The translations under genes and the position numbers were made by a program. From contig PGXM01000012.1 of assembly GCA_002839155.1 (NCBI GenBank), positions 1-64,000 on the forward strand: a DNA stretch of 64,000 nt, given 5' to 3'. Within the stretch, counting starts at the first letter, position 1. Each line of letters opens with the position of its first letter. Positions 44,161-57,662 of this stretch are shown here, in pieces. Under the pieces are notes generated by a model. It did no database searches. It was not told where the DNA came from and saw only the letters and a list, made by a program, of their open reading frames with translations. The stretch is from Tenericutes bacterium HGW-Tenericutes-1 (lineage in GTDB: Bacteria; Bacillota_I; Bacilli_A; Izemoplasmatales; Hujiaoplasmataceae).

Positions 44161-44406
44161 TTAACTCGCTTCGTTGATAAAGTGGATAATTTGTTCAGTC
44201 GAGGGAACTCTGCCGACAGATTTGACAATGCCATTAATAACTAATGCTGGTGTACTCATGATATTATATTTCATAATTTCTTCAATTTTATCAACTTTGA
44301 TAATTGAAATATCACTACGGTTCAATTCAGAGACAACACGTCTTACTTGTGATTCAGTGACTTTACATTTAGAACACCCAGGACCTAATATTTTAATCTC
44401 AACCAT
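44161..44406 (-). CDS. Thioredoxin-like CxxC protein (after acr3)
   Basis: 81 residues from ATG 44406 (MVEIKILGPGCSKCK), chosen over the ATG 60 bases upstream because AGGAG lies nine bases before it and the domain starts here. The redox motif is CSKC (about 11-14), and STPALVINGIVKSVGRVP is the cis-proline region. It belongs to the small thioredoxin_3 family found with arsenic and permease genes. Possibly an electron donor for arsenate or organoarsenic handling; a separate ArsC is not seen. Confidence 0.83.
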   Translation of the reverse strand: MVEIKILGPGCSKCKVTESQVRRVVSELNRSDISIIKVDKIEEIMKYNIMSTPALVINGIVKSVGRVPSTEQIIHFINEAS

Positions 44407-45460
44407 TTGAGACCACTCCTGTATTTGAATCTGATTTAGGGAACCAGTGAGTTGTCTTGTTCGCAATCTTCACTAATATTAACATGACCGGAACTTCTGT
44501 CAAAACACCCACGATGGTTGCTAAGGCAACCCCGGGATTGAGCGGAAAGAGCGCTATTGCGACCGCTACCGCAAGTTCAAAGAAATTGGATGCTCCTATC
44601 ATCCCTGCAGGTGCAGCGATATCATGAGGCAATTTCAACGCTTTAGAAGCTCCATACGCAATACTGAAGATTAAGAACGTTTGAATGATTAAGGGAATAG
44701 CGATTAATAAGATGTGAAGTGGATTCGATAATATCAATTCACTTTGAAGTGAGAAGATTAATATGAGTGTCAGTAACAATCCTGAGATTGTCACCTTGTT
44801 AAACTTAGAAATAAAGTTGTTATTTAGATAATCTATTCCTTTTTTCTTAATGATAAAGTGTCTCGTGATGGCAGCCGCAACTAAAGGAATCACCACAAAC
44901 AAGAAAACCGATAAGAATAACGTTAACCAAGGGACAGATATACCACTGACATTGAGTAAGAATCCTACAATCGGTGCGAATAACAAAAGAATGATTAAAT
45001 CATTGGTCGCCACTTGAACGAGTGTATAGGCAGGATTGCCTTTCGTTAATCCGCTCCAAACAAAGACCATCGCTGTACAAGGTGCGGCACCTAACAAAAC
45101 GGCACCCGCTAGATAATCATTGGCTAGATTTAAAGGAATCAACGTTTTAAAGATAACGAAAAAGAATAGATAAGCAATGCCATACATCGTGAAGGGTTTA
45201 ATAACCCAGTTTGTGATCCACGTCACAAAGAGTCCTTTCGGATTCTTTCCAACATTTTTAATGGAGCCAAAATCAATCTTTAACATCATCGGATAAATCA
45301 TGAGCCAGATCAAGATACCAATCGGAATATTGACACTGGCAATCTCAAATTGATTTAAGAACTCGGGGACGATTGGAAACAACTGCCCAAGCAATACTCC
45401 TATGACCATGCATACTAAGACAAATAAAGTTAAATACTTTTCAAAGAATCCGATTTTCAT
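44399..45460 (-). CDS. acr3: Acr3-type arsenite efflux permease
   Basis: Ten-helix membrane carrier that exports arsenite. 353 residues with the Acr3 signature GAAPCTAMVFVWSGLT, whose cysteine is important for arsenite recognition, and LIWLMIYPMMLKIDFG. It overlaps the following thioredoxin-like gene by eight bases. Part of the arsR operon, so presumably induced by arsenite. Confidence 0.94.
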   Translation of the reverse strand: MKIGFFEKYLTLFVLVCMVIGVLLGQLFPIVPEFLNQFEIASVNIPIGILIWLMIYPMMLKIDFGSIKNVGKNPKGLFVTWITNWVIKPFTMYGIAYLFFFVIFKTLIPLNLANDYLAGAVLLGAAPCTAMVFVWSGLTKGNPAYTLVQVATNDLIILLLFAPIVGFLLNVSGISVPWLTLFLSVFLFVVIPLVAAAITRHFIIKKKGIDYLNNNFISKFNKVTISGLLLTLILIFSLQSELILSNPLHILLIAIPLIIQTFLIFSIAYGASKALKLPHDIAAPAGMIGASNFFELAVAVAIALFPLNPGVALATIVGVLTEVPVMLILVKIANKTTHWFPKSDSNTGVVSNG

Positions 45461-45468
45461 AAGTCCTC

Positions 45469-45708
45469 TTAGAGTTGATTGTTAATCAAAGATTTCACTT
45501 CTTCAAGTGAGGGTACACGTCCATAAGATGCAACTTTGTTATTGATGATTAATCCAGGCGTTCTTAGTAATCTTGCATTCGCAATTTGCATCATGTCAGT
45601 AATATATAATACGTTCGCTTCGACTTTTAATTCAGCTACAGCAGTTTTCACCGTTTCATAAAGTTTTTTACAGTTTGCACAACCTGATCCTAATACTTTA
45701 ATTTCCAT
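45469..45708 (-). CDS. Thioredoxin-like CxxC protein (before acr3)
   Basis: 79 residues, CANC at about 10-13, and RTPGLIINNKVASYGRVP as cis-proline strand. Paralogue of the 81-residue protein at the other side of acr3 (same layout, GSGCANC against GPGCSKC). It immediately follows the permease gene, an arrangement seen with ArsP/UPF0718-type permeases. Confidence 0.85.
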   Translation of the reverse strand: MEIKVLGSGCANCKKLYETVKTAVAELKVEANVLYITDMMQIANARLLRTPGLIINNKVASYGRVPSLEEVKSLINNQL

Positions 45709-45723
45709 AAATAGTCCTCCCTT

Positions 45724-46755
45724 CTATACAAATAAATGTCCAAATGCATTAAACAAATATCCCATGATGATGATTCCAATCGTGACGATTGAAACAAACA
45801 TCACTAGTAATTTTGTTTTAATCACTTTTTTAATCATAATAATCGACGGTAATGATAAAGCCGTCACAGCCATCATAAAGGCTAATACTGTACCAATCCC
45901 TACACCTTTTAAAACTAAGGCTTCAGCGATCGGTAAGGTTCCAAAAATATCAGCGTACATCGGAATTCCGACTAAAGTTGCTAAGATAACTGAGAAAGGA
46001 TTATTGGAACCTAATACTGTTTCAATCCAAGTTTGAGGAATAAATCCATGAATGATTGAACCTATACCGACACCGATTAAAACATATAACCAAACCTTAT
46101 GAATAATTTCTTTAACTTGATCGATAGAATAGTTGATTCTATCTTTTCTTGTCATTTTATATTCTTCTATAGCATCAAAATCAACTGATTCTACATTTTC
46201 TTGTTTTGCGGTAACAAATTGTTCAACGTATCTTTCCATTTTGAATACACTGATTAACGTGCCACCTAATACAGCGATGATAAGCCCAACGATGACATAC
46301 GCTAAAGCGATTTGCCAGTTGAAAATCGTCGCGAGCAACAATACAGAAGCCAAATCAACTAAAGGTGAAGAGATTAAGAATGAGAAGGTAACACCTATTG
46401 GCAGTCCTGCCTTCGTGAATCCGATAAAAATCGGAATTGATGAGCAGGAGCAAAACGGTGTGACCGTTCCTAAGAGTGCCCCAATGACATTGGCCCAAAC
46501 ACCCTTAAACTTACTTAAAATCTTTCTGGTTCTTTCTGGTGAAAAGAAGGATTGAATATAAGAAGCTAAAAAGATTAAGACTGATAACAAAATGAAGATT
46601 TTAATTACGTCATAAAAGAAGAAAGATAAAGCTTTATAAAGTAATCCCTCAATATCTAATTTAATAACGTCACGAAAAAACCAATTGACGATATCTTGAA
46701 GCCAAGTCATCTTTAAAAACGCATCATTCATCCAACTAAATAGCTCTTTTACCAC
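45724..46755 (-). CDS. ArsP/UPF0718-family permease
   Basis: 343 residues with about eight membrane helices and the family hallmark TPFCSCSSIPIFIGF, where the cysteine pair is the proposed metalloid site of ArsP, which exports trivalent organoarsenicals. Start is uncertain: GTG 46755 is ten bases from GGAGG, and TTG 46761 is only four bases from it. Cotranscribed with arsR, which it overlaps slightly, and with acr3. Confidence 0.87.
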   Translation of the reverse strand: MVKELFSWMNDAFLKMTWLQDIVNWFFRDVIKLDIEGLLYKALSFFFYDVIKIFILLSVLIFLASYIQSFFSPERTRKILSKFKGVWANVIGALLGTVTPFCSCSSIPIFIGFTKAGLPIGVTFSFLISSPLVDLASVLLLATIFNWQIALAYVIVGLIIAVLGGTLISVFKMERYVEQFVTAKQENVESVDFDAIEEYKMTRKDRINYSIDQVKEIIHKVWLYVLIGVGIGSIIHGFIPQTWIETVLGSNNPFSVILATLVGIPMYADIFGTLPIAEALVLKGVGIGTVLAFMMAVTALSLPSIIMIKKVIKTKLLVMFVSIVTIGIIIMGYLFNAFGHLFV

Positions 46756-47036
46756 GCGCAAGATGCCTCCGTATTCTTTAAGTCCGTTAAGAATTGAATC
46801 AACTGATCAATCTTTGTTTTATCGACAAAATGCTTTTTCCAGTTTCCTTCTTTTTTAGCAACCGTTAACCCTGCATCGGTTAATAACCGCAAATGATAAG
46901 AAAGCGTTGGTTGAGAAATTGGAAGTTTATCAATCAAGGTACAACCACAGGTTTCACCTTGAATGAGCAACTCTAAAATCTTTAACCGATTTTCATCGCT
47001 TAAGGCTTTAAATAATAATGCATTTTCTTCAAACAT
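46749..47036 (-). CDS. arsR: ArsR/SmtB-family repressor
   Basis: 95 residues, winged helix-turn-helix (LSDENRLKILELLIQGETCGC, then ISQPTLSYHLRLLTDAGLT as recognition helix). The CxC pair in ETCGC matches the arsenite-sensing cysteines of ArsR; a further cysteine lies near the C terminus (ASCAW). GAGGTG precedes the ATG. First gene of the arsenic operon, divergent from the gntR operon. Expected to repress its own operon. Confidence 0.92.
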   Translation of the reverse strand: MFEENALLFKALSDENRLKILELLIQGETCGCTLIDKLPISQPTLSYHLRLLTDAGLTVAKKEGNWKKHFVDKTKIDQLIQFLTDLKNTEASCAW

Positions 47037-47090: not shown

Positions 47091-47152
47091 TTGACACAAT
47101 AAAATGAAAGCGTTATACTTTAACTGGTCATGACAACATGACAACATGACAA
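47091..47152 (+). promoter_or_regulatory. Promoter and operator of the nucleoside operon
   Basis: TTGACA (47091-47096), 17 bp, TATACT (47114-47119). Immediately downstream, over the expected start site, are three perfect 8-bp direct repeats CATGACAA (47129-47152), preceded by a GTCATGAC palindrome (47127-47134). This fits repression by the GntR/HutC protein encoded next. Overlapping the spacer and -10, ATGAAAGCGTTATACT (47104-47119) resembles a CcpA cre site but departs from it at two end positions. Confidence 0.8.
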
Positions 47153-47177
47153 TGTTTTAAAAGGGGGATATTTATTG

Positions 47178-47915
47178 ATGTCAACAGGATACAAAATTCC
47201 AAAGTATTATGTTTTAAAACAAGATATCATCCGAAAAATTGAACAAGACGAACTGAATGATGATCAGATGATACCAAGTGAAAGAGAATTGACCGAAAAA
47301 CATGGTATTAGTCGAATTACAGTTCGAAAAGCAATTGATGAACTGGTAAATGAGGGATATCTATATAGAATTCAAGGCAAAGGCACCTACGTTAAAGGTG
47401 ATTCAGTCAAACAAGAACTGTTCTCTATAACGAGTTGTACACGCGATATTCTTCAAATGGGTAAAATACCAACAAGAAAAGTCATAAATGCACTTGTCAT
47501 CGTTCCAAATTCAAAAAGAATGCGCGAACTAGAAATTACTGCAACCGATAAAATATTCACACTTGACCGTGTCTATTGTGCAGATGGAGCCCCTGTCAAT
47601 AGAACTATAGTTTATCTGCCAATGAAATTATTTCCTGAAATAAACAGGCATGATTTTGGTAGTCAATCACTCTATGACGTTCTTGAAAGAGAGTATAACG
47701 TTAAAATCACTAGAGCAACAAGAACTATTGAAGCCATCGCTGCAGAATCAAAAATTGCTGAATTATTGATGATTCCTGAAGGAATCCCAATTCTATTATT
47801 CCGTGGTGTAACATACGGTATTGTCAATGGTAAAGAAGTCCCAATTGAAACCTTTAAATCATATTATCGCTCAGACAATCGAAGATTTTACATCAATCAA
47901 GTTAAGGTTGATTAA
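47178..47915 (+). CDS. GntR-family (HutC/UTRA) transcriptional regulator
   Basis: 245 residues from ATG 47178, with GGGGGA about nine bases upstream. The N-terminal winged helix has IPSERELTEKHGISRITVRK as recognition region (about 33-52) and a wing YRIQGKGTYV. The UTRA ligand domain follows (about 85-240), with KIFTLDRVYCADGAPVNRT and SLYDVLEREYNV. UTRA regulators sense sugars, amino acids or their phosphates. It is the first gene of the transport-catabolic operon and probably controls it through the CATGACAA repeats; the ligand could be a nucleoside or a pathway intermediate. Confidence 0.9.
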   Translation: MSTGYKIPKYYVLKQDIIRKIEQDELNDDQMIPSERELTEKHGISRITVRKAIDELVNEGYLYRIQGKGTYVKGDSVKQELFSITSCTRDILQMGKIPTRKVINALVIVPNSKRMRELEITATDKIFTLDRVYCADGAPVNRTIVYLPMKLFPEINRHDFGSQSLYDVLEREYNVKITRATRTIEAIAAESKIAELLMIPEGIPILLFRGVTYGIVNGKEVPIETFKSYYRSDNRRFYINQVKVD

Positions 47916-47950
47916 AATAATATAAAAATAATAAAAATACAGGAGGATTT

Positions 47951-49108
47951 ATGAAAAAAGTTTTAGTAGTAGCATTTTCTTTATTCGCATTATTCTTGTT
48001 AGTCGGATGCACTAACGAGAACAACGAAGACATCAAAGTTGGCCTAATTGTGTCAGCTGCTGGTGCTAATGACAATGGTTATAATCAATTCGCCATTGAA
48101 GGTTTAAACCAAGCAAAAGATGAATTCGGAATTCAAATCCAAGTTGTTAATACAGCTAATGATGTTCCTGGTTCGCTAGAAACCCTTGGAGAAGAAGGCT
48201 TTGATTTAGTCTTCTCATTGGAATACAATTTTGGTGCATTAATTACAGATGACGGGTCAGGTCAATCAATCGCTGAAAAATATCCAGATACAACATTTGT
48301 CGTGTTTAACGCTTTCGCAAACACCGATGAAAATGGTGACAAAATTCATGATAACGTCATCGAGGTATTGTTCAATGTTAATGAAGGATCATTCCTTGCA
48401 GGAGCACTCGCTGTTCTTGTTAACGAAAATCATGAACTTTTATTTACTGATGAAGATTACCATTTCACTCCAACTTCCACTTCTAGAGCTGTAGGATTTG
48501 TTGGTGGAACACAATCAGATGGAATATCAGTTTTCGGATATGGATTCGCACAAGGAGTTAACTATATTGCCACTGAGTTAAATGTAGATTATGATTTATA
48601 TGAAACATATTCTGCTGGTTTTGGTGCCTCTACAGAAAACTATAATGTAATCAATTCATATTACACTTCCGGCGCAAACTTTGTTTTTGCTGCTGCTGGC
48701 GGAGTTAGTACAAACATGAAAAACGCTGCTGCTGCTAATGGTAAATTAGCCATCGATGTTGATGCTAACCAAGATGCTTCAGTCCCTGGTTCAGTATTAA
48801 CAAGCGTTTTGAAAAATACAAACGTTGCCATTTATGATATCGTTGAACAATTTGTTGAAGATAAACTAGAAAGTGGAAAACATGTATTCTATGATTTAGC
48901 CTCTGGAGCAACAGGAATTACTGATTTAACAACCATTCAAGGATTTGTGTCAACAGAAGCTGCCGCACAAACAAAATGGAATGAAATTAAAGCTAAAATT
49001 GCCGAACTAGTAGCAGATATCTCTGATGGAACAATTGATGTTATCGATGCACAAGCTGGTGAAGTATTAGACTATTCAACATTAACGCATGTAAATAAAG
49101 CTAACTAA
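47951..49108 (+). CDS. BMP-family nucleoside-binding lipoprotein
   Basis: 385 residues, signal peptide with lipobox LLVGC (cysteine about 20). The mature chain opens DIKVGLIVSAAGANDNGYNQ, the typical PnrA/BmpA/Med start whose residues line the nucleoside pocket, and FVGGTQSDGISVFGYGF is another family segment. It captures extracellular purine or other nucleosides for the ABC system encoded next. AGGAGG precedes the start. Slightly longer than the usual 330-360 because of an insertion near residues 150-165 (LLFTDEDYHFTPTSTS). Confidence 0.92.
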   Translation: MKKVLVVAFSLFALFLLVGCTNENNEDIKVGLIVSAAGANDNGYNQFAIEGLNQAKDEFGIQIQVVNTANDVPGSLETLGEEGFDLVFSLEYNFGALITDDGSGQSIAEKYPDTTFVVFNAFANTDENGDKIHDNVIEVLFNVNEGSFLAGALAVLVNENHELLFTDEDYHFTPTSTSRAVGFVGGTQSDGISVFGYGFAQGVNYIATELNVDYDLYETYSAGFGASTENYNVINSYYTSGANFVFAAAGGVSTNMKNAAAANGKLAIDVDANQDASVPGSVLTSVLKNTNVAIYDIVEQFVEDKLESGKHVFYDLASGATGITDLTTIQGFVSTEAAAQTKWNEIKAKIAELVADISDGTIDVIDAQAGEVLDYSTLTHVNKAN

Positions 49109-49134
49109 CAAATTTTTATTTTGAGGTGATCGGT

Positions 49135-50700
49135 GTGGAAATCATCAAAACCATTGAATTGACAAGGATGTTTGGCGATTTTATCGCAAACAATCAAATT
49201 GACCTAACAGTTGAAGAAAATGAAATTAAGGCAATTGTTGGTGAAAATGGCGCTGGAAAATCCACGCTGATGAACATGTTATATGGACTATTAAAACCTA
49301 CCGCGGGTGAAATTTACATCCGCGGTGAGGTTGTTCATTTTGATTCACCAAATGATGCAATCAAAAAAGGAATCGGTATGGTGCATCAGCATTTCAAATT
49401 AGTCCCAAGCTTAACAATCTATGAGAATGTGATATTAGGTATCGAAGTAGAAAGAAAAATCAAACTCGGAAAATATTCTTTTTCTTTGCCTTCAATTGAC
49501 CACAAATATGAAGCAAAAGCAATCCAAGATTTAATCGATCGATTTCAATTTGGTTTGAAATCAACCGACATTGTTAAAAATTTGTCTATTGGAGCAAAGC
49601 AAAAAGTTGAAATATTAAAAATGTTATATCGCAATGTTGATATTGTTATATTTGATGAACCCACTGCAGTATTAACTCCTCAAGAAATAAAAGCCTTTTT
49701 TGTGACATTAAAAGAACTAAAAAAACAAGGAAAATCAATTATCTTAATTACCCATAAACTGCAAGAGGTAATGGAGGTCAGTGATTCTGTCACTGTCATA
49801 AAACAAGGGAAAGTCATAGGCAACAGAGTAACAAAAGAAACTTCAGATAAAGAACTAGCCAGAATGATGGTTGGAAGAGAAGTTTTATTAAATGTTGAGA
49901 AGAAATATCAAGACTATAGTAAAAATGAAATCGTATATGAAATAAAGGACTTAACAACCTATAACCATGATGGAATTAAAGTAGTAAATGGCATATCATT
50001 TCACTTGCGAAAAGGTGAAATTCTTGGTATCGCTGGTGTAGAAGGAAATGGTCAGTCAGAATTACTCGATCTACTAACAGGTTTGTCGCAATCAATAAGC
50101 GGAAAAATCATATTTAACGGTATTGATATAACTAATAAATGGCCAGATGAAATGCGTACACAAAAAATCGGATTTATTCCTGAAGATCGCTATGAACAAG
50201 GACTTTGTCTAGACATGTCAATCGCTGAAAATATGATTGCCGGTCATCATGGTAAAAAAGAAGTTTGTAAACATGGATTACTTCTCACACAAAAGATCAA
50301 CGAAAAACGAGATCGATTAATTAAATCTAATGATATAAGAGTCTCCGATTGTGAAGGAAATGTCTCATCGTTATCAGGTGGAAATGCTCAAAAAATTATT
50401 CTTGCGCGCGAATTTGATGCAAATCCTGAATTATTAATCGCCGCACAACCGACGAGAGGTGTAGATATTGGCGCAATTGAATATATTCACAAAAGTCTAT
50501 TGAACTTACAAGCTCAAGGAAAATCGATATTACTCATATCAAGTGAGTTATCAGAAATAATGTCATTAGCTGATCGAATCGCCGTAATATACAAAGGCCA
50601 AATCATTGGAGAAGTCAATGGCATAAACGCTTCTCGTGAAGAAATCGGATTACTCATGGCCGGAATTTGTGAAAGGAAACCTGAAAATGAAGTACGATAA
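49135..50700 (+). CDS. Nucleoside ABC transporter ATP-binding protein (two NBDs)
   Basis: 521 residues from GTG 49135, five bases after GAGGTGA. The upstream GTG at 49126 lies inside that site. Two nucleotide-binding domains: the first is complete (GENGAGKST, LSIGAKQK, IVIFDEPTAVLT, ITHKL). The second has the altered Walker A GVEGNGQSE, with LSGGNAQK and AAQPTRGVDIG. This asymmetry is normal in the YufO/NupO nucleoside importers. The end overlaps the first permease gene by 14 bases. Confidence 0.93.
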   Translation: MEIIKTIELTRMFGDFIANNQIDLTVEENEIKAIVGENGAGKSTLMNMLYGLLKPTAGEIYIRGEVVHFDSPNDAIKKGIGMVHQHFKLVPSLTIYENVILGIEVERKIKLGKYSFSLPSIDHKYEAKAIQDLIDRFQFGLKSTDIVKNLSIGAKQKVEILKMLYRNVDIVIFDEPTAVLTPQEIKAFFVTLKELKKQGKSIILITHKLQEVMEVSDSVTVIKQGKVIGNRVTKETSDKELARMMVGREVLLNVEKKYQDYSKNEIVYEIKDLTTYNHDGIKVVNGISFHLRKGEILGIAGVEGNGQSELLDLLTGLSQSISGKIIFNGIDITNKWPDEMRTQKIGFIPEDRYEQGLCLDMSIAENMIAGHHGKKEVCKHGLLLTQKINEKRDRLIKSNDIRVSDCEGNVSSLSGGNAQKIILAREFDANPELLIAAQPTRGVDIGAIEYIHKSLLNLQAQGKSILLISSELSEIMSLADRIAVIYKGQIIGEVNGINASREEIGLLMAGICERKPENEVR

Positions 50701-51754
50701 ACAGGCCCTTAAACAATCGGGCTTTAAAATTTTAAGCATGATAATTCCAGTACTCATCGCCTTTGCGATTGGTGCAATTGTGATTCTATTCGCAAAAGAG
50801 AACCCTTTAAAAATCTATTTTATATTATTTGATCGTTCTTTCTTTAGAATTCAAGGATTATTAAAGACGCTCCATTATGCTGGACCACTCATTTTAGCGG
50901 GACTAGCAATCGCATTGAGTTTTAAAGCAGGGCTGTTTAATATGGGTATTGAAGGACAAATAATCTCTGCTGGATTTGTGGTAGCTGTTTTAGGATACCT
51001 ATGGCAATCACTTCCATCGATAGTTTTAATACCACTATTATTAATCATCGGTACACTCGTTGGAGTCATTGTAGCGATACTTCCAGCTATTCTAAAAGCG
51101 CGATATAATGTCAATGAAATGGTCGTTACTTTACTTTTAAATTATGCGATTATTCAAGTTTTAGAATATTTAACTTCCAATGTATTCAGAGATCCATCTA
51201 GCGGTTATGTATCAACCAACATGATTGGACAAAGTGCAATTATGACTCGATTGTTTGGGTCGAAACTTACCATGTTTTTCTTTGTTGTCGTTGTAGTATT
51301 TGTGATTTTTTATTATATCTTTAATCGATCCAAATTAGGCTACGAGATAACAGCGATGGGAAAAAATCGTTTCTTTGCAGAAGCAACTGGAATGAGAATA
51401 CAAAGAAAGATTATGATAATAATGCTTACCAGCGGTGCGCTAGCTGGGCTAGCTGGAGCTGGATGGATGTTATCAGAAAAATTTTCATACACCCTTGATT
51501 TTTCCGGTACTCCAGGTTTGGGATGGGATGGAATGTTAATAGCATTATTAGGAAGTCATAGTCCGATTGGGATATTGGTTGCTGGTATCTTTTATGCTAT
51601 ATTAAAAACTGGTAGTTCTAATATTGCAATTTTTACCAATGTTCCAGCAGAAATTATTGTTCTTCTTCAAGCGCTTATAGTCCTATTTTTATCATTAAAA
51701 ATGATTATTAAAGCCGCTTCTAAAAGGGCATCAAAAAGAAAGGAGAAAAACTGA
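50687..51754 (+). CDS. Nucleoside ABC transporter permease 1
   Basis: 355 residues from ATG 50687, preceded by AAAGGA. ATG 50636 upstream lies deep in the ATPase gene and lacks a site. About nine hydrophobic helices; KAGLFNMGIEGQIISAGF and NEMVVTLLLNYAI are typical of YufP/NupP permeases. A basic C-terminal tail (KKAASKRASKRKE-like) faces the cytoplasm. Works with permease 2. Confidence 0.9.
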   Translation: MKYDKQALKQSGFKILSMIIPVLIAFAIGAIVILFAKENPLKIYFILFDRSFFRIQGLLKTLHYAGPLILAGLAIALSFKAGLFNMGIEGQIISAGFVVAVLGYLWQSLPSIVLIPLLLIIGTLVGVIVAILPAILKARYNVNEMVVTLLLNYAIIQVLEYLTSNVFRDPSSGYVSTNMIGQSAIMTRLFGSKLTMFFFVVVVVFVIFYYIFNRSKLGYEITAMGKNRFFAEATGMRIQRKIMIIMLTSGALAGLAGAGWMLSEKFSYTLDFSGTPGLGWDGMLIALLGSHSPIGILVAGIFYAILKTGSSNIAIFTNVPAEIIVLLQALIVLFLSLKMIIKAASKRASKRKEKN

Positions 51755-52671
51755 TGGACTTCATCATAAAAATTTTCTCTGATTCTCTCTATTTTACCGG
51801 GCCGATACTTTTGTGTACATTAGGTGGCCTCTTTGCTTATAAAGCCAATATGATTAATATTGGATTAGAAGGTATGATGTTATTTGGAGGCTTTATATCT
51901 GCGTTAATCTTATTCTTTACTCACAGTTGGATTATTGCATTTATAGCAGCGATATTATTAGCAATCTTACTGGGTCTATTATTTAGTTATTTTGGAGTAA
52001 CTAAAAAAGCAAACTTTATTATTACAGGGTTCGCCATCAATTTATTAGCAATTGCGGTCGGAAAGTATGTTTTGGCCGCATTAGGGTCAATTGATATCAA
52101 CGTCATTTCAGATGTGACTCGACAAATGGCTGCAATCGACTTAGGCATTATCGGTGAAATTCCAGTCATTGGACCCATTATCAATAAACAATCATTCTTA
52201 ACTTACTTTTCATTCATTTTGATATTTATCTGCCAATTTGTTTTATTTAATACCAAATTTGGAACTTATGTTCGCGTTGTTGGTGAATCAGAGGAAGCGG
52301 CTAAGTCAATTGGTATATCCATTAATAAAATTAAATATTTAGCTGTCATTATCGGTGCGTTATTATGCGCTTTTGCAGGATACAATGTCGCAATTAATCA
52401 ATTAGCTTCTTATACACCAGATATTACTGCGGGAACGGGATTTATTGCAATTGCTGCGATCTATTGTGGTGCAGGAAACCCAAAAAATTCATCACTCTAC
52501 GCCATTTTATTTGGATTATCAAGATCATTAGCCGTCAACTTATCATTAAGAATTGGAACAATTGCTGGATTACTTGAGATGATTCCATATATTATGATTA
52601 TTATTGTCCTAACCGTTGTCGGAATAATCCGAAAACGCAAAACATTATATAGGGGGTTTTTACATGAATAA
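51754..52671 (+). CDS. Nucleoside ABC transporter permease 2
   Basis: 305 residues, eight or more hydrophobic helices, with ANMINIGLEGMMLFGGF and GTGFIAIAAIYCGAGNP, typical of YufQ/NupQ. Its ATG overlaps the previous stop (TGATG), and AGGAGA lies upstream. It completes an importer of one lipoprotein, one double ATPase and two permeases. Confidence 0.92.
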   Translation: MDFIIKIFSDSLYFTGPILLCTLGGLFAYKANMINIGLEGMMLFGGFISALILFFTHSWIIAFIAAILLAILLGLLFSYFGVTKKANFIITGFAINLLAIAVGKYVLAALGSIDINVISDVTRQMAAIDLGIIGEIPVIGPIINKQSFLTYFSFILIFICQFVLFNTKFGTYVRVVGESEEAAKSIGISINKIKYLAVIIGALLCAFAGYNVAINQLASYTPDITAGTGFIAIAAIYCGAGNPKNSSLYAILFGLSRSLAVNLSLRIGTIAGLLEMIPYIMIIIVLTVVGIIRKRKTLYRGFLHE

Positions 52672-53227
52672 AACAGCGCTCATTGTCGTTGATATGATCT
52701 ATGATTTTACCAACCCCGAGGGAAAAGTTTATTACCCACAAAATCAAAAAGTAATCTATCATATTATTGATTTAGTTCGAGAGGCGAGACAATCTAATTG
52801 TCAAATTATCTACATTCAACATACCGTTACGAAAGAAATGTTAGCTAATAATATCAAAAAAACACGCGAGTGTTGTGTAGAAGGCACGGGCGGAAATAAC
52901 ATTGATGAACGTCTTGAGGTTCAACCAAATGATTGGATTATTAAAAAGCATAAGTATAGTGCGTTTTTTGAAACGCCACTCAATCATTTACTTAAGAAAA
53001 ATGACATCACACAATTAATTGTCGTTGGAACAAAGACCAACAATTGTGTGTATGCTACAATTTTAGATGCTTACAATCATGATTACATTACCTACGTTGT
53101 AAAAGAATGTGTTGGAACAAGCGATATAACAACGAATGAAATTTATTTACGTGATATTGGCAAGTACTTAGGTGAAGTACGATCAATGGATGAAATAAAA
53201 GTGTTATTAAGAGCAGGTGTTTTATAA
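52664..53227 (+). CDS. Isochorismatase-family cysteine hydrolase
   Basis: 187 residues, Rossmann-like fold with the catalytic triad D10 (VVDMIYDF), K95 (KKHKYSAF) and C128 (TNNCVYATI) in place. A possible cis-peptide/oxyanion GTKTNN precedes the cysteine. The DxH metal site of nicotinamidases is not visible after the second strand (YIQHTVTKE instead), so a carbamoyl or ureido amide hydrolase (RutB, N-carbamoylsarcosine or biuret type) is more likely than nicotinamidase. It overlaps permease 2 by eight bases, so its substrate probably derives from the imported compound. Confidence 0.85.
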   Translation: MNKTALIVVDMIYDFTNPEGKVYYPQNQKVIYHIIDLVREARQSNCQIIYIQHTVTKEMLANNIKKTRECCVEGTGGNNIDERLEVQPNDWIIKKHKYSAFFETPLNHLLKKNDITQLIVVGTKTNNCVYATILDAYNHDYITYVVKECVGTSDITTNEIYLRDIGKYLGEVRSMDEIKVLLRAGVL

Positions 53228-54183
53228 TGTTCGATTTAATTGCGAGTGGCTATTGTTCAATGGACCGAATCATCAAGATTGATCCAAAAGCAAAAATATC
53301 GAAAACTTCTATTGTTCAAAATGATGATAACTCAGTGATTCGATATGGTGGTTGTGGTATTAACGTAGCCACATGCCTTTCAAGACTTGATAAAAAAGCA
53401 TTACCAATCATCCGTGTCGGTGATGATTATGAATCAACTGGATTTAAAGATTTTATCGAGAAAGAAAAACTAAGTTCTGATGCAATTACTCGTGTTCAAG
53501 GTGTGTCTACGAGTTGCTGTTATTTGATTGAAAATCCCACATCTGAACATATCACATTGTTTTATCCTGGTGCTATGAATGCAGATCACTTCCGAAAGTA
53601 TGATAGACAATGGTTTTCATCATCTAAATTAGCTTTAATGACAGTAGCATCGAAAATTGATAATGTTGAATTTTTAAAAAGAACGATGGAAGCAAAGTTA
53701 CCTTTATTTTTAGGTATGAAGTTTGATAAAAATGCTTTTCCATCCAGATTCTTAAATAAAGTTGTAAGAAATGCAACAGGTATTTTTGCAAATGAGATTG
53801 AGTCAGATTATATTTTATCGGTCATGAAACAAAACACGATTGAGGACCTATTTAAGACTAATCCGTTGCTTGATTTTTATATCATCACCAAAGGGAAACA
53901 AGGAAGTTTAGGATACTTCCGTCATAACAAGGAAGTTCATATTCAAAATGCACCAATTGTTCCAGCTAAACAATTCGTAGACGCAGTTGGATCAGGAGAT
54001 GCGTATATCGCAGGTTTCATCTATGGATATCTTGGTGGTCAATCAATCCTCGATTCCATGCGAATTGGAGCTACATTAGCCAGTTTTGTTATTGAAGGCA
54101 TGGGGGCAACTTCTAATGCACCAAATATAGAGTCATTAAACGCAAGATATCATGCCACATTTTTTGAAGGAGATCAATTATGA
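53227..54183 (+). CDS. PfkB-family sugar or nucleoside kinase
   Basis: 318 residues, ribokinase fold. The N-terminal glycine motif is YGGCGINVATCLSRLDKKA, and the catalytic base D258 is in DAVGSGDAYIAGF. IGATLASFVIEGMGA is the adenine-side region. It phosphorylates a sugar, sugar-1-phosphate or nucleoside with ATP. The adjacent phosphorylase suggests ribose-1-phosphate, deoxyribose or the nucleoside itself. Members of the family include ribokinase, pseudouridine kinase, and archaeal ribose-1-phosphate kinase. It overlaps the hydrolase gene by one base and the phosphorylase gene by ATGA. Confidence 0.88.
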   Translation: MFDLIASGYCSMDRIIKIDPKAKISKTSIVQNDDNSVIRYGGCGINVATCLSRLDKKALPIIRVGDDYESTGFKDFIEKEKLSSDAITRVQGVSTSCCYLIENPTSEHITLFYPGAMNADHFRKYDRQWFSSSKLALMTVASKIDNVEFLKRTMEAKLPLFLGMKFDKNAFPSRFLNKVVRNATGIFANEIESDYILSVMKQNTIEDLFKTNPLLDFYIITKGKQGSLGYFRHNKEVHIQNAPIVPAKQFVDAVGSGDAYIAGFIYGYLGGQSILDSMRIGATLASFVIEGMGATSNAPNIESLNARYHATFFEGDQL

Positions 54184-54950
54184 AGCCAACACTTTATATG
54201 AAATGTACCAACGAGACCGTCTCACCTTATGTCATCTTTTCAGGAGATCCGTGGCGAGTTGAAGTTTTAAAAACATATCTTGATAACCCAACTCACGTTG
54301 CGTTTTCAAGAGAATTTAATACCTATACTGGATATTATAAAGGGATGAAAGTGACTGTTTCATCGACTGGAATTGGAGCTCCATCTGCCGCAATAGCCAT
54401 GGAAGAGATGTATGAATGTGGCATGAAAGTGGCACTTCGAATGGGTACTGTTATGTCATTAAAAGATGAACTTCTAGGGCATTACATTGTTCCAGTTGGT
54501 TCTGTAAGAGACGAATCCACGAGTTCGACATATATCGATAAATCATACCCTGCGGTTGCTGATTTTAATTTTGTGAGCATTATAAGCCGAGTCATCAAAA
54601 ACACAGGGTCAAAAGTAGATAATGGTATTAATGCCACTATGGATGGATACTACTCACAAATGAGAGAATCAAAACTATCTCTTGAAAGAGAAATTAACAT
54701 CCAATCAATTTTTGATAATCTCAAAAAAAATCACGTTTCAGGTATTGATATGGAATCAGCTTGTATGCTTGTCGTAGGTCGATTGATGAATGTTAAGACG
54801 GCATCTCTTACCCTTGTTACCGTTCTAGAAAATCTTAAAGACATGTTGAAAGATAAAGAACGTGAAACTAAAGAACAAGAATTATGTCAAATAGCATTAG
54901 AGAGCATTTATCAATATTACTTAGAGGAGAATAAAAATGAATCAAAATAA
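54180..54950 (+). CDS. Uridine phosphorylase-like nucleoside phosphorylase
   Basis: 256 residues of the NP-I family. FSGDPWRVEVLK holds the phosphate-site GDPxR, SREFNTYTGYYKG and STGIGAPSAAIAMEE are shared with uridine phosphorylase, and RMGTVMSL replaces the usual RxGTxGxx. VSGIDMESACMLVVGRL holds the ribose-binding MES. It splits a nucleoside with phosphate into base and (deoxy)ribose-1-phosphate. Base specificity cannot be called. It lies between the PfkB kinase and BtpA genes and overlaps both. Confidence 0.87.
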   Translation: MKPTLYMKCTNETVSPYVIFSGDPWRVEVLKTYLDNPTHVAFSREFNTYTGYYKGMKVTVSSTGIGAPSAAIAMEEMYECGMKVALRMGTVMSLKDELLGHYIVPVGSVRDESTSSTYIDKSYPAVADFNFVSIISRVIKNTGSKVDNGINATMDGYYSQMRESKLSLEREINIQSIFDNLKKNHVSGIDMESACMLVVGRLMNVKTASLTLVTVLENLKDMLKDKERETKEQELCQIALESIYQYYLEENKNESK

Positions 54951-55737
54951 TGTAATAGGATTAAACAAAAAAACAGTTATCGGCATGGTCCACTGTTTAC
55001 CTTTACCTGGAAGTGCTGGATTTCAAAATAATATGAATGAAATTCGAGTTCAAGCAATTGAGGATGCAATCACGCTTGAAAAAGCGGGGTGTGATGCACT
55101 AATCGTAGAAAATATGGGTGATGGACCTTTTTCAGTCTTTCTTAACACAGAACAAATTGCTGCCTTATCATCAATTGCAACTTTAGTAAAAGAAAAAGTA
55201 TCAATTCCGATTGGAATTGATGCTGCATTTAGTGATTATAAGGCGTCTTTAGCTATTGCTAAAGCAATTGAAGCTGATTTTGTTAGAATCCCTGTTTTTG
55301 TAGACACTGTCATGTTTTACGGAGGTACTATTGAACCTTGTGCTCGTGAAACACTGCTTTATAGAAAACAACTAAATGCTGATAATATTCTCATATTGGC
55401 TGATATTCAAGTAAAACATACGTATATGATTAATCCAAGTATCTCAATTGAAGATTCAGCACATATGGCAGAAAAGTGTGGCGCTGACGCCATCATCGTT
55501 ACAGGAGCTTCTATCGGCGCAGAAACGCCCTTTGATATTATTGAAAGAGTCAAAAAAGTAGTGAGTATTCCTGTTATCGCGGGCTCTGGAATAAAACCAT
55601 CCAATATAAAGAAACAGTTATCACTTGCAGATGGATGTGTCGTTGGTTCAAGTTTAAAAGAAAACGGCATCATCAGTAATCCCGTTTCTTATGATTTGAC
55701 AAAAAAAGTGATTGACGCTTTAAGGAAGGGTGAGTAA
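54937..55737 (+). CDS. BtpA/SgcQ-family TIM-barrel protein
   Basis: 266 residues. The hallmark GMVHCLPLPGSAGF is near residue 17, with ALIVENMGDGPF, DFVRIPVFVDTVMFYGG and a C-terminal phosphate-binding-like GSGIKPSNIKK then VVGSSLKENG. BtpA is named for a photosystem I biogenesis factor in cyanobacteria, but most bacterial members (for example SgcQ) sit in sugar operons and are presumed to act on phosphorylated sugars. Here it may be the isomerase or a second aldolase of the route (inference). It overlaps the phosphorylase gene by 14 bases, with GGAGAATAAAA before the ATG. Confidence 0.87.
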   Translation: MNQNNVIGLNKKTVIGMVHCLPLPGSAGFQNNMNEIRVQAIEDAITLEKAGCDALIVENMGDGPFSVFLNTEQIAALSSIATLVKEKVSIPIGIDAAFSDYKASLAIAKAIEADFVRIPVFVDTVMFYGGTIEPCARETLLYRKQLNADNILILADIQVKHTYMINPSISIEDSAHMAEKCGADAIIVTGASIGAETPFDIIERVKKVVSIPVIAGSGIKPSNIKKQLSLADGCVVGSSLKENGIISNPVSYDLTKKVIDALRKGE

Positions 55738-55743
55738 ATACAC

Positions 55744-56895
55744 ATGATGAGACCGATGAAATTAGGTGGACAAGAACTGTTATTTGGCGAAGGGACACTA
55801 GCTCACCTAGCTACATTAAAGTATAAAAAAGCGGTGATTGTTCTTGCCAACGATGTGATGATTCAAAACGGTGTCATGTCGATTATAAAAGGCCACTTAA
55901 CTACTGCACAAATTCCATTTGAATCATTTATTGGTATTGAATCTGATCCAGGCTTTTCAACGGTCATGCGAGGCGCAGAGTTCATGAGAAAACACGAACC
56001 AGATTTAATAATCGCTGTTGGTGGCGGTTCAGCAATGGACGCTGCGAAAGCGATGTGGATTTATTATGAAAATCCTGAGATAAAAGATTTAGTGACGTTA
56101 ATGGATAAAAATAAATTCCCGTTATTAAGAAAAAAAGCAAAACTAATTTGTATTCCTTCAACAGCCGGCACCGCCTCAGAAGTATCTCGTTCAATCGTCA
56201 TTACTGATGATAAAACAGGGATAAAATACGGCATTGGAAACATGGAAATGGTCCCTGATATTGCCATATGTGACCCTGTCACGACCTTATCACTACCAAA
56301 ATCAATTACTGCTGAGACTGGTATGGATGCAATGTGCCATGCTTTAGAAGCTATTGTATCAAATCGTGCTAATTATATATCAGATATTTTAGCAGAAAAG
56401 GCTATACTAGATATCTTTGAAACCTTACCTAAAGTTCTCAAGGATGGATCAAATGTATCCTATAGAGAAAAAATGCTGACCGCAGCGATGGTGGCTGGTT
56501 TAGCATTTACCAATGTATCGTTGGGGATAACACATTCGATCGCTCATGGATTAGGAAGTTTATTTAAAATGCCCCATGGGTTGGCAAATGCTATATTATT
56601 ACCCTATATCGTAGAATTCAATTCACAAAATGAAAGTGCCAAAAAAATCTATGATGGTTTAGCAACGAAACTAGGTTATGTCGATTTAGTCTCTGCCCTA
56701 AAAGATTTAAATCATACATTGGGTATTCCAAGTAATCTGTCCGAAAAACTATCAGACAAGTCAAAATTTGATGAAAATCTTTCTACATTAATCGAGTATG
56801 CTCTTTCAGATGGTTGCACAAAAACGAATCCAATTATTCCAACAAAAGCACAAATGCAAGCCATTATTGAATTGGCTTATAAAGGAGGACAATAA
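55744..56895 (+). CDS. Iron-containing alcohol dehydrogenase of the nucleoside operon
   Basis: 383 residues. Nucleotide loop is VGGGSAMDAAKA (near 93). Metal ligands are the aspartate of GMDAMCHALEA with its histidine, and the histidines in THSIAHGLG and FKMPHGLANAILLP. It differs clearly from the YqhD-like enzyme at 29060 and is closer to the 1,3-propanediol/lactaldehyde type. Likely role is reduction of a short aldehyde released from the sugar, regenerating NAD. Six bases after the BtpA gene, with a GGGTGAG-like site. Confidence 0.9.
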   Translation: MMRPMKLGGQELLFGEGTLAHLATLKYKKAVIVLANDVMIQNGVMSIIKGHLTTAQIPFESFIGIESDPGFSTVMRGAEFMRKHEPDLIIAVGGGSAMDAAKAMWIYYENPEIKDLVTLMDKNKFPLLRKKAKLICIPSTAGTASEVSRSIVITDDKTGIKYGIGNMEMVPDIAICDPVTTLSLPKSITAETGMDAMCHALEAIVSNRANYISDILAEKAILDIFETLPKVLKDGSNVSYREKMLTAAMVAGLAFTNVSLGITHSIAHGLGSLFKMPHGLANAILLPYIVEFNSQNESAKKIYDGLATKLGYVDLVSALKDLNHTLGIPSNLSEKLSDKSKFDENLSTLIEYALSDGCTKTNPIIPTKAQMQAIIELAYKGGQ

Positions 56896-56898
56896 ACG

Positions 56899-57618
56899 AT
56901 GAATTTGATTCTTTATATGTCATTAGGATCGCCTTCACTTGAAAAAAGCATTGAGACTGCTCGTAACTACGTTGCGGGTGGTTGTGATGTGATAGAGGCT
57001 GATTTCCCAGCCAAAGATCCTTATCTTGATAGTCCTTATATTCAAAGTCGTATGGCTGAAGCATTAAGAAATTGTCCAGATTATGATCAATATATGGCTG
57101 CCATTGAGACAATAAAATTACAAAATCCAAAAACTCAGTTTTTTTATTTAATTTACGAAAGAACAATTCTTGAAATCGGTCTCCAGAAATTTATTGATTT
57201 TTGTCATCGAAGCAATCAAAAAGATGTCATCTTAGTGGGCACTGAGTTTCCTCATGTCAGAAAAGCTCTGGTTGATTCAGGCTTGCTCGCAAGTGCGTTT
57301 ATTCGTTATCATTTACCGGATGAAGATATCGAAGTAGCCAAGAAAGCCAATGGTTTTATTTACTTACAAGCCTCTCCTGCCGGGCTATTACACCCTAAGT
57401 ATCAAACGCTTAAAGATATTATTCATCACTTAAGGGTTGATCATGGATTACAAAACCGTATTAACTGTGGTATTGGTGTATCATCCCCTGAATACGTAAA
57501 ACTTGTTAAAGAGGCTGGGGCAGATGGCGCATTTGTTGGAGCTATTGTCTTGCATCTTCATGAAAAACCAGAAGAAATGAAACAATTAATTCGAAAATTA
57601 AAAGATCAAACACTATAA
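56899..57618 (+). CDS. TrpA-like TIM-barrel lyase (orphan, not tryptophan synthesis)
   Basis: 239 residues, about 25-30 shorter than TrpA. It shares the catalytic pattern: E33 and D44 in EADFPAKDPYLDSP are 11 residues apart, as E49 and D60 of tryptophan synthase alpha. FIYLQASPAGLLH and NCGIGVSSPEYV correspond to the later barrel strands. The phosphate-loop GSA is replaced by GAI in FVGAIVL. No trpB or other trp gene is linked. TrpA performs a retro-aldol cleavage releasing glyceraldehyde-3-phosphate, so this enzyme may cleave a sugar phosphate in the operon's pathway (inference). AGGAGGACAATAAACG precedes the ATG. Last gene before the terminator. Confidence 0.82.
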   Translation: MNLILYMSLGSPSLEKSIETARNYVAGGCDVIEADFPAKDPYLDSPYIQSRMAEALRNCPDYDQYMAAIETIKLQNPKTQFFYLIYERTILEIGLQKFIDFCHRSNQKDVILVGTEFPHVRKALVDSGLLASAFIRYHLPDEDIEVAKKANGFIYLQASPAGLLHPKYQTLKDIIHHLRVDHGLQNRINCGIGVSSPEYVKLVKEAGADGAFVGAIVLHLHEKPEEMKQLIRKLKDQTL

Positions 57619-57626
57619 AATAATAA

Positions 57627-57662
57627 AAAGATTCTTGCTGAATACAAGAATCTTTCTTTTTT
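57627..57662. terminator. Terminator of the nucleoside operon (bidirectional)
   Basis: Perfect 11-bp stem AAAGATTCTTG/CAAGAATCTTT (57627-57655, seven-base loop) followed on the plus strand by CTTTTTT. On the minus strand the tail is TTATTATTTT, so it may also serve the GGDEF gene. Confidence 0.9.

Follow-up and report, generated by a model that had tools for sequence, protein, structure and literature searches.

How might a bacterium dismantle the sugar of an imported nucleoside through an operon that contains neither deoB nor deoC, the usual genes for this purpose? This question is raised by eleven plus-strand genes (positions 47175-57618) in a 64,000-nucleotide stretch of contig PGXM01000012.1 from Tenericutes bacterium HGW-Tenericutes-1, the whole of which is referred to here as the window. 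The open reading frames and their Pfam and NCBIfam profile matches showed that these genes form one operon, encoding a GntR-type regulator, a BMP-type importer of the ATP-binding cassette (ABC) class, an isochorismatase-family hydrolase, a PfkB-family kinase, an NP-I nucleoside phosphorylase, a BtpA/SgcQ-family TIM barrel, an iron-containing alcohol dehydrogenase (Fe-ADH) and a TrpA-like TIM barrel. An earlier note, made from the sequence, had described an uninterrupted operon of these families lacking deoB and deoC, and both observations were borne out by the gene calls and by recurrence of the operon in four other genomes, with deoB and deoC encoded elsewhere in this genome. We tentatively propose that the operon serves to break down an imported ribonucleoside, with BtpA and the TrpA-like barrel acting as isomerase and aldolase.

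Our survey, which covered 296 genomes of one class plus plasmid and viral records, recovered the eleven-gene set, its order unchanged, in four other genomes (G263, G112, G036 and G126) from two families, with protein identities of 39-90%. The TrpA-like proteins of these genomes were 85, 59, 44 and 39% identical to the window protein, respectively; the GntR gene of G263 was seen in locus L014, and the BtpA gene of G126 was found separately. Such recurrence of the whole ordered block excludes chance grouping, and the operon is an old, coherent and conserved unit. The anticipated co-occurrence of the two barrels was also found: the TrpA-like clade was present in 6 and BtpA above cut-off in 11 of the 296 genomes, and all six TrpA-like genomes hold BtpA in the same gene cluster. 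By our own arithmetic a random draw would give this pairing with a probability of about 5e-10, a figure that overstates independence since five of the six genomes belong to one order. BtpA and the TrpA-like barrel are a real two-barrel module. In the sixth carrier, G291, the two genes flank what appears by eye to be a mannose-type phosphotransferase system (PTS), with no phosphorylase or PfkB kinase, and in our tree the G291 BtpA falls within the group sister to the operon BtpAs, a placement of moderate support (83/84). This cluster suggests that the pair follows a phosphorylated sugar rather than nucleosides as such. Viral contigs yielded no relatives, the TrpA matches in plasmid records were all distant (24-26% identity) and none was taken as a member of the TrpA-like clade, and a single-protein scan of genome contigs returned only the same or a sister organism and one probably spurious short match.

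In the proposed route, the BMP/ABC importer would take up a ribonucleoside, which the NP-I enzyme would split by phosphorolysis into the base and ribose-1-phosphate; the PfkB kinase would then phosphorylate O5 to give ribose-1,5-bisphosphate, the same product being expected if the nucleoside were phosphorylated first. BtpA would convert the phosphorylated aldose to a ketose, and the TrpA-like barrel, through TrpA-type general acid/base retro-aldol cleavage, would release a triose phosphate and a C2 aldehyde (glycolaldehyde, or glycolaldehyde phosphate unless a phosphatase acts first). Fe-ADH would reduce this aldehyde, re-oxidising NADH in a fermenter, and the isochorismatase-family amidohydrolase would act on the freed base or on an amide group of the substrate. 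Each of these reactions is our inference, as are the substrate and the order in which BtpA and the TrpA-like barrel act. Nucleoside import and phosphorolysis are the likely part of the scheme, and a non-orthologous isomerase and retro-aldolase are a plausible one.

Overall, such a route would resemble the non-carboxylating pentose bisphosphate pathway of haloarchaea, with the isomerase and the aldolase exchanged. Glycerol-1-phosphate dehydrogenase and Fe-ADH belong to the same broad superfamily. The haloarchaeal pathway is experimentally established and consists of an NP-I phosphorylase, a PfkB-family ribose-1-phosphate kinase, a ribose-1,5-bisphosphate isomerase, a ribulose-1,5-bisphosphate (RuBP) phosphatase, a ribulose-1-phosphate aldolase and an aldehyde reductase that is annotated as glycerol-1-phosphate dehydrogenase (PMC9700705). 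The window operon shares with it the phosphorylase and the kinase family, together with the proposed isomerisation, aldol cleavage to triose phosphate and C2 aldehyde, and reduction; it differs in having BtpA and the TrpA-like barrel, a BMP importer and an amidohydrolase. No match to IF-2B (PF01008; ribose-1,5-bisphosphate isomerase and MtnA) or to Aldolase_II (PF00596; FucA and Ald2) was found in any of the five operon carriers, as would be expected if BtpA and the TrpA-like barrel replace them. The earlier suggestion of a shunt-like catabolic operon with non-orthologous enzymes is supported. No RuBP phosphatase of the HAD type is present in the operon, a result for which no genome-wide search was made.

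A distant version of the operon bears on its logic. Plasmids of Agrobacterium vitis (NZ_AP023270.1) and Rhizobium lusitanum (NZ_CP050307.1) carry a GntR-BMP-ABC-permease-permease-isochorismatase-PfkB-NP-I series, an eight-gene front end ordered as in the window, with A. vitis proteins 23-39% identical to those of the window and with GntR and BMP in one reading frame in R. lusitanum. The tail of these rhizobial operons lacks BtpA, the TrpA-like barrel and Fe-ADH, and instead encodes a protein with an SIS sugar-isomerase domain (NF002805, 270 bits, cut-off 135) followed by an aldehyde dehydrogenase. The simplest reading is that the window and rhizobial operons would encode a single pathway, which uses different sugar-phosphate isomerases and disposes of an aldehyde in opposite ways. 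Since the rhizobial tail consists of an SIS isomerase and an aldehyde dehydrogenase, it supports a sequence of isomerising, releasing an aldehyde and disposing of it, and it suggests that Fe-ADH may be the anaerobe's counterpart of the rhizobial enzyme. Disposal of an aldehyde by the dehydrogenase, which had been proposed earlier, thus gains support from an aldehyde dehydrogenase at the place of Fe-ADH in a distant syntenic operon. The predicted metal ligands of Fe-ADH (D, H, H, H) are conserved in our alignment; the protein is AdhE-like and scored only 23 bits on NF053832, the model applied in looking for a glycolaldehyde reductase.

The kinase bears on what kind of sugar is degraded. Judged by family, PfkB is a predicted O5 kinase of a ribosyl substrate, either ribose-1-phosphate or a nucleoside. 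The window protein scored 47 bits on the ribose-1-phosphate kinase model NF053626 (cut-off 330) and exceeded no equivalog cut-off, and an ATP-dependent ribose-1-phosphate kinase was the best model, under cut-off, for the kinases of the rhizobial core and for two BtpA-linked haloarchaeal kinases tested (loci L042 and L104). These scores may be read as suggestive in the rhizobial core and the haloarchaeal BtpA pairs and as neutral in the window. A PfkB kinase is hard to place in the dihydroxyacetone phosphate (DHAP) shunt for 5'-deoxynucleosides, which uses mtnK, mtnA and ald2 (PMC12632272). The operon parallels this shunt in its logic, which runs from a phosphorylase or nucleosidase through kinase, isomerase and aldolase to the disposal of an aldehyde. 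If it operated here on 5'-deoxy- or other 5'-modified nucleosides, BtpA would convert 5-deoxyribose-1-phosphate to a ketose-1-phosphate and the TrpA-like barrel would cleave this to DHAP and acetaldehyde, leaving the aldehyde to Fe-ADH. Such a scheme would account for the phosphorylase, isomerase, aldolase and aldehyde disposal, would suit a dehydrogenase nearest to the acetaldehyde-reducing domain of AdhE, and would fit the presence of canonical deo genes elsewhere, which suggests an unusual sugar. Yet PfkB kinases of the ribokinase and ribose-1-phosphate kinase kind phosphorylate O5, which 5'-deoxy substrates lack, so that a ribokinase-type enzyme would require a 5'-hydroxyl on the window substrate, and every one of the five operons, like the rhizobial core, retains the kinase. 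In addition, the window kinase is PfkB rather than MtnK, the phosphorylase is Udp-like rather than MtnP and lacks the purine-type Asp204, and the MtnA and Ald2 families are absent from the carriers. We therefore favor the haloarchaeal logic over the 5'-deoxy shunt, which we consider improbable, because PfkB argues for an O5-phosphorylated intermediate. The first version of the pathway in the earlier note, from pentose-1-phosphate directly to ketopentose-1-phosphate, was not supported, as it leaves the kinase without a job.

Analysis of the TrpA-like barrel is consistent with an aldolase function. In our tree the clade is split from true TrpA by a long branch with 100/100 support. E33 (TrpA Glu49) is invariant in the clade and position 44 (TrpA Asp60) is D or E, the window protein having E33 and D44; two true TrpAs in the alignment likewise have E at the Asp60 position. 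The numbering follows an enteric TrpA, and fetched TrpA proteins gave identical columns. Phosphate-site glycines 213 and 234 are retained and Tyr155 and Gln157 are invariant, with I, V or S in place of the indole-pocket residue Phe212 and no conservation of the loop around Thr183. TrpA chemistry releases glyceraldehyde-3-phosphate. The protein is likely to keep general acid/base lyase chemistry, and because both catalytic acid positions are kept, a role as a predicted retro-aldolase, already suggested by the earlier note, is plausible.

Service as a tryptophan synthase subunit is unlikely by the same comparisons. The genome does contain an orphan trpB (604 bits; G000:C4:94306-95451, locus L117 8292-9458) with no adjoining trpA and has no other TrpA-family match at E <= 1e-12, and G112 likewise has an orphan trpB, so the barrel could in principle be the missing alpha subunit. 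Against this, it falls below the TIGR00262 trpA equivalog cut-off (81.3 vs 102.35 bits), no trpB above cut-off was found in four of the six TrpA-like carriers, and the gene belongs to a separate clade with an altered indole pocket and is fixed in the nucleoside operon or the PTS cluster. We give this explanation next to no weight.

For BtpA, the evidence comes from fold and gene neighborhood. The window protein is below the photosystem I biogenesis equivalog NF045918 (162.7 vs cut-off 400 bits), and we found no catalysed reaction for the BtpA/SgcQ family in the literature and no solved structure of a member. In the literature on BtpA, SgcQ, TrpA-like aldolases and this set of genes, the haloarchaeal pathway and the DHAP shunt were the only functional precedents. 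The best AlphaFold model (predicted TM-score 0.78, mean pLDDT 72), built from two sequences and too shallow for active-site reading, resembles the phosphate-binding TIM barrels PcrB, TrpA and HisF. Among the annotated plasmids and sampled genomes, a PfkB kinase stands beside BtpA in three haloarchaea and in most of the alphaproteobacterial cases seen, other neighborhoods contain an FGGY kinase or a PTS, in many cases accompanied by an Rpe-like epimerase, and one haloarchaeal and one Acidisoma BtpA have neither kinase nor PTS close by. Since a kinase or PTS is nearby in most contexts, the BtpA substrate is most likely a phosphorylated sugar. One further cluster combines BtpA with an Rpe-like protein and a class II aldolase of its own, and this arrangement, together with the exchange for an SIS protein in rhizobia, suggests a sugar-phosphate isomerase rather than an aldolase as the predicted role of BtpA. 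The earlier concern that the two genes might travel with unrelated substrates was justified in part: BtpA accompanies PTS, FGGY and PfkB sugar systems in many places, and its pairing with the TrpA-like gene extends to a PTS operon. Neither protein is nucleoside-specific, because both also occur in these other sugar systems. The sgc operon of Escherichia coli (sgcXBCQAER), a sugar operon, similarly encodes a BtpA/SgcQ protein together with another TIM barrel; it differs in using PTS entry and in having the Rpe-like SgcE as the partner barrel.

Some of the BtpA neighborhoods outside the operon recur. Haloarchaeal plasmids (L042, L047 and L104) have a convergent PfkB kinase adjoining BtpA. Alphaproteobacterial plasmids (L043, L045, L046, L105 and L106) repeatedly carry, in varying form, a cluster that combines an ABC importer with a phosphotriesterase-like protein, a GATase1_like protein, PfkB, BtpA, and either an M20-family hydrolase or TenA; it would represent another BtpA pathway. 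Some Bacilli genomes (G291, G230, G161 and G076; loci L080-L092) have up to eight BtpA/SgcQ paralogues, most of them located in PTS operons alongside Rpe-like, HAD, SDR or amidohydrolase-like partners; these paralogues are a large uncharacterised sugar-catabolic family.

Comparison with the rest of the genome indicated what the operon is not needed for. Encoded elsewhere are deoB (526 bits), deoC (TIGR00126, 258.6 bits, cut-off 117.3), deoD (290.7 bits, cut-off 232), transketolase and Rpe, and deoB was found in all six TrpA-like carriers. The operon is thus an additional, dedicated route, and its substrate may well be an uncommon nucleoside. These genes also bear on the second version in the earlier note, in which the TrpA-like barrel would act as an analogue of deoxyribose-5-phosphate aldolase, giving glyceraldehyde-3-phosphate, the product of TrpA chemistry, and acetaldehyde, which the AdhE-like Fe-ADH would reduce to ethanol. 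This version was not supported, as it duplicates bona fide deoB and deoC (and deoD) in the same genome, and it would leave the isomerase without a role, 2-deoxyribose having no C2 hydroxyl; we regard it as quite improbable.

The identity of the base is approached through the phosphorylase and the hydrolase. NP-I keeps the phosphate-binding motifs and lacks the equivalent of purine Asp204, and the Gln and Arg with which uridine phosphorylase contacts the base vary across the aligned NP-I proteins. The window NP-I is uridine-phosphorylase-like, yet guanosine is preferred by such an enzyme from haloarchaea (PMC9700705), and the likeness does not by itself give the base. The isochorismatase-family hydrolase is nearest to N-carbamoylsarcosine amidases, lacks the DxH metal motif of nicotinamidases as read from its sequence, and is fixed in the operon core across two phyla, and one might speculate from this N-carbamoylsarcosine/RutB-like enzyme that the base carries an amide or carbamoyl group. 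A nucleoside with such a base, or with a sugar other than ribose whose odd phosphosugar would be handled by the BtpA/TrpA-like pair, would explain the fixed hydrolase, the variable base contacts and the ordinary nucleoside genes elsewhere. The sequence names no candidate substrate, and most NP-I members use ribosyl or deoxyribosyl compounds, so that we view this alternative as unlikely, if worth serious attention. Use of nicotinamide riboside, with NP-I splitting the riboside and the hydrolase acting as nicotinamidase, would agree with the position of two NP-I relatives next to pnuC; it is very improbable given the missing DxH motif and the relationship to N-carbamoylsarcosine amidases, and salvage of this kind needs no sugar-degrading tail. 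These relatives lie directly beside pnuC on plasmids of Salmonella and Enterococcus (L115 8001-9472 and L116 6947-8383), where the pairs possibly serve uptake of nicotinamide riboside or another nucleoside. In Acetoanaerobium noterae (L107 2066-8726), a BMP-ABC-permease-permease importer series precedes a flavoprotein-like gene and a gene for an NP-I protein (34.5% identity), and the rest of the operon is absent.

Several points weigh against the ribonucleoside route proposed here. The 47 bits of the window PfkB on the ribose-1-phosphate kinase model compare with 74 for IolC and 72 for ribokinase. With deoB, deoC, deoD, transketolase and Rpe present, ordinary ribonucleosides need no second route, and BtpA and the TrpA-like barrel are also found with a PTS and no phosphorylase. 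Small genomes may commonly lack IF-2B and Aldolase_II, and the carriers are 86-99% complete; the rhizobial operon has no aldolase gene. As the operon contains no RuBP phosphatase, RuBP would be cleaved to glycolaldehyde phosphate, which suits Fe-ADH poorly. Taking both sides together, we put the ribonucleoside unit with its PfkB/BtpA/TrpA-like/Fe-ADH route at somewhat short of an even chance. As for the earlier interpretation, shunt-like catabolism, a plausible retro-aldolase and aldehyde disposal found support, and neither version of the chemistry as written did.

A wider proposal, possible though doubtful, is that the TrpA-derived barrel is a carbohydrate retro-aldolase and BtpA/SgcQ proteins are sugar-phosphate isomerases, which together would form a new bacterial route from a nucleoside-derived pentose (bis)phosphate to triose phosphate and a C2 alcohol, with the same BtpA step serving PTS- and kinase-dependent sugar pathways elsewhere, including E. 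coli sgc. BtpA/SgcQ proteins are widespread in haloarchaea, proteobacteria, Bacilli and cyanobacteria, sgc is an orphan operon, and the phosphorylase, kinase, candidate retro-aldolase and aldehyde reductase around BtpA narrow its reaction to a small number of steps that can be assayed. If the TrpA-like protein is an aldolase, a biosynthetic lyase domain was recruited into sugar catabolism, and if the whole proposal is true, pentose-bisphosphate nucleoside catabolism, known from archaea, would extend to bacteria.

Finally, the layout of the locus agrees with a single transcription unit. Neighboring genes are separated by -14 to +35 bp, with the first permease begun at its favored ATG, and a ribosome-binding site is visible before most gene starts. 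A promoter-like site and a terminator-like hairpin enclose exactly the eleven genes; matches of either kind are by count no commoner than in shuffled sequence, and the operon limits are supported by the position of these sites and by a similar promoter region recurring in other carriers. In three of these carriers a promoter, a cre-like motif (catabolite-responsive element) and ACTGGTTATAAC-like repeats are, by eye, similarly arranged 5' of GntR, and repeats of the octamer GTYATRAC, similar to GTCATGAC / CATGACAA of the window, are present in other carriers. The window repeats are a candidate operator for the GntR-UTRA regulator. Cre-like matches in the window are not above chance in number, so for this motif only position and recurrence count, and they would point to catabolite repression of the operon.

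Table. Coordinates and supporting evidence for the eleven operon genes and flanking signals in the window.
Feature	Positions	Strand	Evidence
Promoter-like site TTGACA-17-TATACT	47091-47119	+	11/12 matched; overlaps cre-like sequence
Cre-like sequence	47105-47118	+	2 mismatches; within promoter-like site
Tandem GTCATGAC / CATGACAA repeats, just 5' of GntR	47127-47151 (approximate)	+	Read from sequence
GntR-UTRA (HutC-type) transcriptional regulator	47175-47915	+	Start TTG 47175 or ATG 47178; GntR and UTRA above cut-off
BMP/PnrA-type substrate-binding lipoprotein	47951-49108	+	PF02608, 113 bits
ABC transporter ATPase, two ABC domains	49126-50700	+	Pfam/NCBIfam
ABC permease 1	50687-51754	+	ATG 50687 favored from relatives; longest ORF begins 50636
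ABC permease 2 (BPD_transp_2)	51754-52671	+	Pfam
Isochorismatase-family cysteine hydrolase, N-carbamoylsarcosine amidase/RutB-like	52664-53227	+	Profile matches; motif reading
PfkB-family kinase	53227-54183	+	Best PDB match MJ0406 sugar kinase, 71 bits
NP-I nucleoside phosphorylase, uridine-phosphorylase-like	54180-54950	+	PF01048, 106.8 bits
BtpA/SgcQ-family TIM barrel	54937-55737	+	TIGR00259, 224.5 bits vs cut-off 153.4
Fe-ADH, nearest to AdhE alcohol dehydrogenase domain	55744-56895	+	Profiles, alignment
TrpA-like TIM barrel, separate clade	56899-57618	+	PF00290, 91.4 bits vs cut-off 27
Terminator-like hairpin, 11-pair stem, T-rich tail	57627-57655	+	Sequence scan

Upstream of the operon, a divergent minus-strand cluster (44161-46761) resembles, by eye only, an arsenic or thiol-metal operon, with an Acr3-like transporter, a DUF318-type permease and a thioredoxin-like protein; the start of its apparent ArsR-type regulator lies just upstream of the GntR promoter.

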